Below are positions 41,050-43,383 of a stretch of 43,400 bases of DNA, piece after piece. The notes beneath the pieces were generated by a model, which saw only the letters and a list, made by a program, of their open reading frames with translations, searched no databases and was not told the origin of the DNA. The position numbers and the translations under genes are program-made. How positions within the stretch are numbered: position 1 is the stretch's first letter; each line of letters opens with the position of its first letter. The stretch comes from Candidatus Thioglobus sp. (GTDB lineage Bacteria; Pseudomonadota; Gammaproteobacteria; PS1; Pseudothioglobaceae): positions 1-43,400 of the forward strand of contig DUCF01000010.1 of the NCBI GenBank assembly GCA_012959965.1. The letters run 5' to 3'.

Positions 41050-41763
41050 TTATTCATCGTGTGTCATTGTGTGTTGGTCATGATCAGCACTCTCTTTGTC
41101 TGCATGCTCATGTGATGAGGTGCTAGAGCTATGACCTTCGTGTGGGTTGTCTCCGCTCGCCATTGCCCAGTGGTGAGGCTGGTGATGATTGCCATAAGCC
41201 ATTATTCCTATATATCCCAAACCCTGAATTTTGGCTATGTCTTCAGGTGTGCTGGCAGTAACAACAATTCTATACACGTTGCCTTCACTGTTGGTTTTAA
41301 CTGCCATTTTCCAACCAGTCTCTGATTCCATCTGTGCCGGGTGGACCGATAAGACTCTATTGAGAGATCTATTTGCTCGCGTGGTGGTTGGTGCAATGAT
41401 GGCCTCAAATCCATTTTCAATTTTCCTTTGTGAAACATCAACATTGAGTGACATATCTTGCATTTCTGTTAGATGCTGGCGAAGAGCCTCTATATTGACT
41501 TTGCTCCAGTCAGTTGCATCATTGGCTTCGAGTGCTGCAATAACCTCTTGGATAACGGCAAAAGGGTCGGTGCCAGCCTCTGTCAATACTGTTCCATTGT
41601 CTATAATTGTTGAGCCTTGACTCATCATTGTAGAATGATCCATGCTGGAGTGGTCCATGTTTGAATGATTCATCTTCGGCTCATGTATTTGTGAAAAAAC
41701 ACCTATTACTGATATGCAGCCCACGATGATGAGTGGATAAGTGATTTTTTTGTTATATTTCAT
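41050..41763 (-). CDS. Exported Met/His-rich protein, probable copper or other metal binding
   Basis: This 237-residue protein begins with a positively charged, hydrophobic N-terminus (KKITYPLIIVGCISVIGVF), a signal peptide or anchor; VGC at 16 looks like a lipobox but lies too early in the hydrophobic run. Residues 31-48 repeat M-x-H-S units (MNHSNMDHSSMDHSTM), the type of motif found in periplasmic copper proteins. The last 50 residues are rich in His, Asp and Glu (GNHHQPHHWAM and HEHADKESADHDQH). The middle part (65-190) is a compact non-repetitive domain I do not recognise. A Crp/Fnr regulator is divergent and a terminator follows. Confidence 0.72.
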   Translation of the reverse strand: MKYNKKITYPLIIVGCISVIGVFSQIHEPKMNHSNMDHSSMDHSTMMSQGSTIIDNGTVLTEAGTDPFAVIQEVIAALEANDATDWSKVNIEALRQHLTEMQDMSLNVDVSQRKIENGFEAIIAPTTTRANRSLNRVLSVHPAQMESETGWKMAVKTNSEGNVYRIVVTASTPEDIAKIQGLGYIGIMAYGNHHQPHHWAMASGDNPHEGHSSSTSSHEHADKESADHDQHTMTHDE

Positions 41764-41819
41764 TGCTGCTCCATTGATATGTATTTGAAAAGTTTGCTTA
41801 CACTATTAAAAGTGAGTAA

Positions 41820-41861
41820 ATTATATATCTAACTGGCAAATATCTGTATGATTCAAATCAT
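41820..41861 (-). promoter_or_regulatory. FNR/Crp-like site at -41.5 of the Met/His-rich gene promoter
   Basis: ATGAT-TCAA-ATCAT at 41848-41861 is a perfect half-site pair; the flanking T and A extend it to TATGAT/ATCATA. The FNR consensus is TTGAT-N4-ATCAA. On the minus strand TATAAT lies at 41825-41820, so transcription should start near 41813 and the palindrome centre (41854.5) is at -41.5, the classical class II activator position. For the divergent regulator gene the same site lies 20 bp before the ATG, where it would overlap its promoter and could repress. Confidence 0.65.
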
Positions 41862-41881
41862 ATTAATTATACAAATTTATC

Positions 41882-42457
41882 ATGCTTATTGATGATTTAC
41901 ATGACACGCTAGGTTCAAAGAGTATTCGTTTAAAAAAAGGCGAATACGTCTTCACTCAAGGACAGAGTGTTGAAAACATCTTCTGTGTTATTCAAGGAAG
42001 AGTGAGATTGATGCGTCAAACCATAGAGGGCGCCCCAATTGTGATTCATGTAGCCTTTGCTGGTGAAAGTATTGCAGAGGCCTCTTTGTTTTCAGAAAAG
42101 TACCATTGCTCTGCATTAGTTGATATAGGGGCCGAAATTGCTGTATTTTCAAAAAAAACATTGCTTAATCGGCTACAAACTAGTCCTAAATTAACACTAA
42201 GTTTATTGCAACAGATGACTATCAGTGTTCGTGATTTAAGAATGCTAAATGAAATTAAAAGTATTTACAGTGCGCAAGAGAGAGTACTTACTTTTTTGAG
42301 GGCTGAGTTTAAACAAGAGCAAGAGCTGGATTTGTCTTTGAAGGACATTGCTCAAAAGATTGGCCTAAGCCACGAGGCTTTCTACCGAACCATAAAAACA
42401 TTAGAGACAGAAGGGAGAATATGTCGCAGTGGGCGTCACCTTGAACTTGTTGACTGA
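41882..42457 (+). CDS. Crp/Fnr family transcriptional regulator
   Basis: This 191-residue protein is a cyclic-nucleotide-binding-like beta-barrel (LKKGEYVFTQGQSVENIFCVIQGRVRLM, residues 17-44), a dimer helix about 105-135, and a C-terminal winged HTH (SLKDIAQKIGLSHEAFYRTIKTLETEGRI). It has only Cys35, Cys76 and Cys181 and lacks the FNR N-terminal Cys cluster, so it does not carry an FNR-type 4Fe-4S centre. The recognition helix has Glu165-x-x-Tyr168-Arg169 where FNR has Glu-x-x-Ser-Arg. It is shorter than typical members (about 220-250). ATG at 41882 follows the palindrome. Confidence 0.93.
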   Translation: MLIDDLHDTLGSKSIRLKKGEYVFTQGQSVENIFCVIQGRVRLMRQTIEGAPIVIHVAFAGESIAEASLFSEKYHCSALVDIGAEIAVFSKKTLLNRLQTSPKLTLSLLQQMTISVRDLRMLNEIKSIYSAQERVLTFLRAEFKQEQELDLSLKDIAQKIGLSHEAFYRTIKTLETEGRICRSGRHLELVD

Positions 42458-42526: not shown

Positions 42527-42567
42527 GGTTAGGGCTTCAAGTGGTCTCACTTTGAGGAATGGAATTG

Positions 42568-43383
42568 ATGAGAAATAAAAAAATAGTTACATTTATTTTT
42601 CTCATAATGTCTTTTGTTGTGCCAGCTAAGGTCGCGGATGATGAGATGGTATTGATACCCGCTGGCACATTTCAAATGGGCAATCCGGATGGCGAGAGCG
42701 GTGATGATAATTATCCAGTGCGCAGCGTCACAATCGACAGTTTTTACATGGGTAAATTTGAGGTGACTGTGGGGCAGTTTAAAGCGTTTGTAAAGGATAC
42801 TGGGTATGAATCCTCAATGAGTTTTTGGGAAGGATATTTCGTTTCTCCGGAAGATAGTCACCCTGTTGTTGGTGTGGATTGGTTTGCCGCAAATGCTTAT
42901 GCACAGTGGGCTGGTGTGCGGTTACCAACAGAGGCTGAATGGGAGTATGCAGCGCGCGGGGGATTGGCAGACATGTCTTACCCTTGGGGCAATGAACTTG
43001 ATCATGATAAGGCCAATTATCATAGGGCTTGGAAAAGCAACATTACTTACGATTATCCAAATTATATAACAACAGGTCGCACGGACGAATGGCGCTATTC
43101 AAGCGCCCCTGTTGGCAGTTTTGAGCCTAATGGGTTTGGTTTGTACGATATGGCAGGCAATGTTACAGAGTGGTGTCAGGATTGGTATCAGAGGGGTTAC
43201 TATTTAAGCTCGCCTACGGACAACCCACAAGGGCCACAAATTGGCGACGAAAAAGTTACCCGAGGCGGTCATTGGTTTAGCTGGAATCTGGGCTTACGTG
43301 TGCATAATCGGGGTAGCAATCCCCCAGACGTTAAAGGGTGGCAAGATGTGCAGGGTTTTCGTTTAGCAGTAGACCTAAAATAG
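42568..43383 (+). CDS. SUMF1/formylglycine-generating-like exported protein, NirV-like
   Basis: This 271-residue protein has a signal peptide (KKIVTFIFLIMSFVVPAKVA) and then a complete SUMF1 fold: MVLIPAGTFQMGNPDGE, YMGKFEVTVGQFKAFV, PVVGVDWFAANAYAQWAGVRLPTEAEWEYAARGG, GLYDMAGNVTEWCQDWY and the C-terminal VTRGGHWFSWNLGLRV and GFRLAVDL. The two catalytic cysteines of true formylglycine-generating enzymes are absent from the GGHWFSWNLGLRV segment; the only Cys is in EWCQDW. It is thus more like NirV, the SUMF1 protein beside copper nitrite reductase. ATG at 42568 has GAGGA about 9 nt before; 42559 would leave none. Confidence 0.88.
   Translation: MRNKKIVTFIFLIMSFVVPAKVADDEMVLIPAGTFQMGNPDGESGDDNYPVRSVTIDSFYMGKFEVTVGQFKAFVKDTGYESSMSFWEGYFVSPEDSHPVVGVDWFAANAYAQWAGVRLPTEAEWEYAARGGLADMSYPWGNELDHDKANYHRAWKSNITYDYPNYITTGRTDEWRYSSAPVGSFEPNGFGLYDMAGNVTEWCQDWYQRGYYLSSPTDNPQGPQIGDEKVTRGGHWFSWNLGLRVHNRGSNPPDVKGWQDVQGFRLAVDLK

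Follow-up and report, generated by a model that had tools for sequence, protein, structure and literature searches.

A tyrosine-bearing CRP/FNR-type regulator and its ATGAT-N4-ATCAT site: a predicted local class II activator in Candidatus Thioglobus

Does the palindrome that lies between two divergent genes in this stretch of Candidatus Thioglobus sp. DNA (43.4 kb, hereafter the window) serve as the operator of the regulator encoded next to it, and did operator and protein depart from the FNR pattern together? A motif scan found a single exact ATGATN4ATCAT in the window, ATGATTCAAATCAT (positions 41848-41861, unstranded; centre 41854.5), which we predict to be the binding site of the adjacent regulator, and which we propose to extend to TATGAT-N4-ATCATA (TATGATTCAAATCATA, 41847-41862). 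It occupies a 118-bp intergenic region (75% AT), with the gene for a Met/His-rich protein on one side and the gene for a 191-aa regulator on the other. The exact site turned up in 44 of 20,000 shuffles of this region (p about 0.002); judged by these shuffles alone, the site is suggestive, which makes comparative evidence decisive.

The regulator gene (41882-42457, plus strand) encodes a member of the CRP/FNR superfamily. Its product has a cyclic-nucleotide-binding-type sensor domain (PF00027, E 2.9e-14, above the cut-off) followed by a Crp-type helix-turn-helix (PF13545, E 7.1e-6; 26.3 bits, slightly below the 27-bit cut-off, which the relative L101 exceeds), and a palindrome with TGA/TCA half-sites lies near the predicted promoter. 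The AlphaFold model (pLDDT 89.6) matches the folds of CRP, DNR, Clr and NtcA, with DNR (3dkw) as the best PDB match by E-value in Foldseek. Within the superfamily, the protein is FNR-like and not FNR. The first residues of its recognition helix (residues 164-176 by the secondary structure of the model; 42371-42409, plus strand) are H164-E165-A-F-Y168-R169, of which E165, Y168 and R169 are invariant in a 30-sequence alignment and occupy the positions of FNR Glu209, Ser212 and Arg213. The sequence-only reading, which had the regulator keep Glu and Arg and replace the FNR Ser by Tyr, was correct on this point. Absent from that reading were H164, at what we take to be the position of FNR Val208 and CRP Arg180, and the conserved H75-C76 of the sensor domain (codons at 42104-42109, plus strand). 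Among Tyr-type regulators, as opposed to Ser-type ones, H75 is found in 57 of 63 and C76 in 63 of 63 (0/49 in the Ser-type), and R120 in the long dimer helix (codon 42239-42241, plus strand) is Arg in 59 of 63 and in none of the Ser-type. The only cysteines are C34, C76 and C182, and the N-terminal cluster of four Cys for the oxygen-sensing [4Fe-4S] cluster of FNR proper is absent. The helix and half-sites, E-x-x-Y-R with ATGAT, differ from the E-x-x-S-R and TTGAT of FNR and DNR, and HEAFYR is not the RETVGR-type helix that goes with the TGTGA sites of CRP. Scores against the NCBIfam models stay below the cut-offs for both FNR (17.3 bits, cut-off 228) and CRP (39.8 bits, cut-off 266).

On the other side of the palindrome, an ORF with homologues (41050-41763, minus strand) encodes the putative target, a 237-aa secreted Met/His-rich protein (MNHSNMDHSSMDHS..., ...HHQPHHW...). 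A Pfam search of this protein returned no family above the cut-off; its homologues pair with Tyr-type regulators on alphaproteobacterial plasmids. Upstream of the gene, the -10 element TATAAT (41820-41825, minus strand), taken to span -12 to -7, predicts a transcription start at 41813 (minus strand), and the centre of the palindrome then falls at -41.5, exactly where ATGAT-N4-ATCAT had been placed from the sequence alone. The promoter was not listed by a simple consensus promoter scan; that scan depends on a -35 hexamer, and promoters under class II activation can do without one. The same geometry recurs at 55 Tyr-type sites, where the best TATAAT-like hexamer begins 30 bases past the centre on the target side; position -11 is A in 51/55, and T stands at -7 in 37/55 and at -12 in 32/55. 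Matches at this offset average 3.29 of 6, the best of all offsets (1.67 over all of them), and the side away from the target has no comparable -10 peak (2.02 at best). This constant distance between site and -10 across the group bears out the claimed spacing and, with starts predicted from sequence, the offset is the class II position and is conserved throughout the Tyr-type group. Judged by sequence and predicted start, the window promoter itself fits class II: its site lies near -41.5, it has a -10 element, and promoters of this class can dispense with a -35. On the other flank, 3' of the regulator, the window encodes a predicted secreted 274-aa FGE-sulfatase-domain protein (42559-43383; PF03781, E 9.6e-68) with a distant likeness to PvdO and GldK.

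Relatives in the host's family allow site and regulator to be followed across genomes. Eleven full-length relatives of the regulator, the window protein included, share 44-58% identity. Scanning genome contigs with the window protein as a single query found nothing; an alignment-based contig scan (A1) recovered seven named relatives, which belong to Candidatus Pseudothioglobus, Thioglobus and Bathymodiolus symbionts. Genomes G005 and G080 keep the divergent arrangement of the window and have the site beside the orthologous regulator (ATGATTCAAATCAT and ATGACTCAAATCAT); the G080 locus includes the divergent His-rich gene, and the G005 contig ends within the upstream region of the target gene. 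Two other genera, g8 and g9, have the regulator behind a different gene; their site, e.g. ATGATTTAAATCAT, comes after the regulator, upstream of an operon for cytochrome c'-like, DUF4395 and metallo-beta-lactamase (MBL)-fold proteins. In G051 an unrelated gene separates regulator and operon, and the site (ATGACTGAAATCAT) is still 5' of the operon. This operon is conserved downstream of the regulator in sulfur-oxidising Thioglobaceae and mussel symbionts (L005-L012), where its control by the Tyr-type regulator is predicted. At one g8 locus (L013; G055:C1, about 409063-409588) the regulator has been broken by in-frame stops, a recent loss, and the operon's site ATGATTTAAATCAT persists.

The Met/His-rich protein is encoded in nine family genomes. 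Where regulator and target occur together, the site is present in three of three (G000, G080 and G005, the last with its target cut by the contig end). The Tyr-type regulator was not found at the search thresholds used in G031, G002, G003, G075, G078 and G081, an absence that is less certain for several of these genomes, which are incomplete; none of the six has a site within one mismatch 5' of the target homologue (6/6 readable). G073, whose sequence upstream of its target homologue is masked, is left out of the count. The proposed pairing of protein and site is thus upheld within the family, where the two are present or absent together. In G031 (L174, contig C32) the His-rich gene retains a leader shared with G005, and the stretch with the site is gone along with the regulator.

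We surveyed 369 genomes of Gammaproteobacteria, 398 of Proteobacteria, and plasmids, and took from them, with flanks, 64 regulators of the Tyr type and 51 of the Ser type. We counted complete NTGA-N6-TCAN palindromes next to these regulators, leaving the first base free. Beside Tyr-type regulators that base was A in 51, C in 2, T in 1 and G in 1 (n=55), and beside Ser-type regulators T in 39 and A in 1 (n=40); shuffled flanks gave about 0.6-1.5 per first base in the Tyr set and 0.35-1.65 in the Ser set. Three Tyr-type loci (L073, L133, L134) had no recognisable site. Because the Tyr-type protein recurs with ATGA..TCAT at more than 50 regulator loci in many proteobacteria, mostly near metal- or copper-linked genes, the Tyr-type proteins look like a real, little-studied group of regulators. 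The suggestion that protein and site had changed together stands in one respect, the match of residue and base across the two groups, and has to be narrowed in another. On the regulator tree, Tyr versus Ser needs one change (weak branch support, 42), and a search of the tree for independent Tyr origins found none, so that the joint change comes down to one ancient event and the matches are not independent events. Inside the Tyr-type group, H164 accompanies T..A just outside the site in 34 of 37 loci, and P164 accompanies C..G in 10 of 10, possibly a second residue-base match within one branch. Four alphaproteobacterial Tyr-type regulators (L138, L139, L142, L143) carry PPALYR, with Pro in place of the helix Glu165, and retain ATGATAG..ATCAT sites; the recognition-helix Glu of CRP/FNR proteins is held to read the core.

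Within the host genome there are 7 matches to RTGAYTNNARTCAY, and all except the window site lie inside an ORF; going by these matches, the regulator looks local in its action. A wide regulon was rejected, with the other exact-type palindromes of the window and its own genome lying inside coding regions. The same genome contains TTGATN4ATCAA 19 times, versus 1 for a reversed-pattern control, and a further CRP/FNR protein with PESFSR that adjoins a TTGATATACATCAA site.

The reading that we favour, at a probability of about 0.72, makes the 191-aa protein a regulator of the Tyr168 group that activates locally and in the class II manner, with an A:T outer pair in its site and a likely input from copper, a related metal or a thiol. 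Sequence comparison establishes the site, its spacing from a predicted start, the group-wide match of residue and base, and the joint presence and absence; from these we infer binding, activation, signal, metal binding and autorepression. A dimer would sit on TATGAT-N4-ATCATA between the divergent genes and, at -41.5 of the Met/His-rich gene, would recruit RNA polymerase in the class II manner, replacing the -35 element. E165 and R169 would retain the TGAT core of FNR-type sites, and the outer A:T pair of the Tyr168 group, instead of the T:A of the Ser-type, would insulate the system from the FNR-type regulator and the TTGAT-N4-ATCAA sites of the same genome. H75/C76, together with R120, would sense the input, and the product made in response would be a Met/His-rich protein that binds metal in the periplasm. 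The regulator may also repress its own gene by this binding, the start codon of that gene being near the site. On Roseobacter-group plasmids (L100, L103, L105) the site is immediately 5' of the regulator's start codon (about 7 bp from there to its centre), a placement suggestive of autorepression.

Alternatives to this reading concern the site, its user and the way in which it is read. The AT content of the intergenic region and the motif's appearance among the shuffles speak for an inverted repeat that arose by chance, but we reject this and give it next to no credence: the palindrome is conserved in orthologues and in the whole Tyr-type group, its spacing from the promoter is fixed, and it is absent together with the regulator. 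Use of the site by the FNR-/DNR-type Ser regulator encoded elsewhere in the genome, with the neighbouring Tyr regulator acting elsewhere, would be in line with the TGAT core common to both site types, with the presence of the PESFSR protein next to its own site, and with some ATGAT..ATCAA sites listed for Rhodobacter sphaeroides FnrL (PMC2908626). We nonetheless hold this to be very improbable, given that 39 of 40 palindromes near Ser-type regulators are TTGA..TCAA, that the window site is altered at both outer bases, and that the site is missing without the Tyr regulator even in G002, which retains a Ser-type one. A weightier objection, though in our judgement less likely than not to be right, is that the site is indeed under this regulator's control, but with its outer A:T pair recognised indirectly or through other residues, H164 for one, the match with Tyr168 being a by-product of shared ancestry. 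The single Tyr/Ser change on the tree is compatible with this, as is the report that the outer base pairs of CprK sites are read largely indirectly (PMC2610375); further residues also differ between the groups, the near-complete differences being H75, C76, R120, position 153 and Y168. Yet residue 164 is variable among Tyr-type regulators (H, P, R, K, Q, A) and residue 165 is Pro in four loci, while the outer base remains A, and Y168 (63/63 versus Ser in 49/49, by definition of the two groups) is the only position of the recognition helix that is fixed and different. For E. coli FNR, the main contacts to the FNR box are reported to come from Glu209, Ser212 and Arg213 (PMC4505428). We consider Y168 a candidate, drawn from sequence comparison, for the residue that reads the outer A.

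As for the signal, the metal-linked context and the conserved H75-C76 make copper, a related metal or a thiol the most economical guess. Islands that hold the regulator on alphaproteobacterial plasmids contain DUF411, P-type ATPases, DUF305, four-helix copper proteins, a copper oxidase, CopC/CopD or metal-sensing repressors (metal or copper genes are lacking in 2 of the 11 islands examined), and other branches have predicted targets that include proteins of the Metal_resist type, a CopZ-like HMA protein and cytochrome c'-like proteins rich in His/Met, as well as the DUF4395 operon. A metal function is less plain in the Thioglobaceae, where several target operons encode DUF4395, cytochrome c'-like and MBL-fold proteins and are not clearly linked to copper. 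These DUF4395 and cytochrome c'-like targets, some sulfur-linked neighbours (YeeE, MBL fold, rhodanese), the Cys conserved in the Tyr-type group and DNR as nearest solved relative by E-value would suit a non-metal signal such as nitric oxide, sulfide/persulfide or general thiol redox. This deserves serious consideration but appears the weaker account, several alphaproteobacterial copies lying amid copper or heavy-metal genes and many targets being His/Met-rich or metal-resistance proteins.

Much of the system is already known, namely the superfamily, the TGAT core and activation from -41.5. With E. coli FNR and its TTGAT-N4-ATCAA box, the regulator and its site share the superfamily, the TGAT core, class II spacing at -41.5, the helix Glu and Arg and the 4-base spacer. 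They differ in having Tyr for Ser212, A where the FNR box has its outer T, a sensor domain with H75-C76, no N-terminal four-Cys cluster motif, and a single, local predicted target. Pseudomonas aeruginosa DNR (3dkw), a haem-dependent NO sensor and the best solved-structure match by sequence as well as by Foldseek E-value, aligns in the AEA(S/M) region of the sensor domain, whereas its helix is ETFSR and its V-A aligns to the H-C of the Tyr-type. CprK (TTAAT-N4-ATTAA) is likewise a CRP/FNR protein whose recognition helix is altered and whose site is not TTGAT (PMC2610375); it has Val at the Glu209 position and a change in the G:C pair, whereas here it is the Ser212 position and the outer pair that have changed. 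The copper one-component regulators CueR, CsoR and CopY belong to unrelated protein families, and the job suspected to be shared with them is the local control of copper-linked genes. A 2010 study described uncharacterised alphaproteobacterial CRP/FNR groups A, B, C and G with predicted sites related, but not identical, to the FNR motif (PMC2908626), and the Tyr-type group may be one of these. No NCBIfam model covers the Tyr-type group above its cut-off, and neither 'Crp' nor 'Fnr' occurs in a review of marine copper regulators (PMC10141476). Literature text on the motif, on CRP/FNR copper regulators and on DUF411/DUF4395 links left the group undescribed, a weak negative given that 'Crp/Fnr' with its slash is unsearchable.

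Our analysis offers a small natural experiment on the gain of new DNA specificity by CRP/FNR regulators, in which two groups co-resident in one genome have an equal TGAT core, one fixed difference in the recognition helix and one changed base pair. More tentatively, and at somewhat less than even odds, a widespread CRP/FNR branch would be a metal sensor, probably for copper, with a His-Cys pair in the old ligand pocket and a Tyr-for-Ser, A-for-T operator code by which it is kept apart from the FNR-type regulators of its own cell. Should copper prove to be the signal, this branch would join the known bacterial copper regulators, and a function could be predicted for genes annotated only to the Crp/Fnr superfamily and for the unnamed genes of His-rich periplasmic proteins that many plasmids carry.
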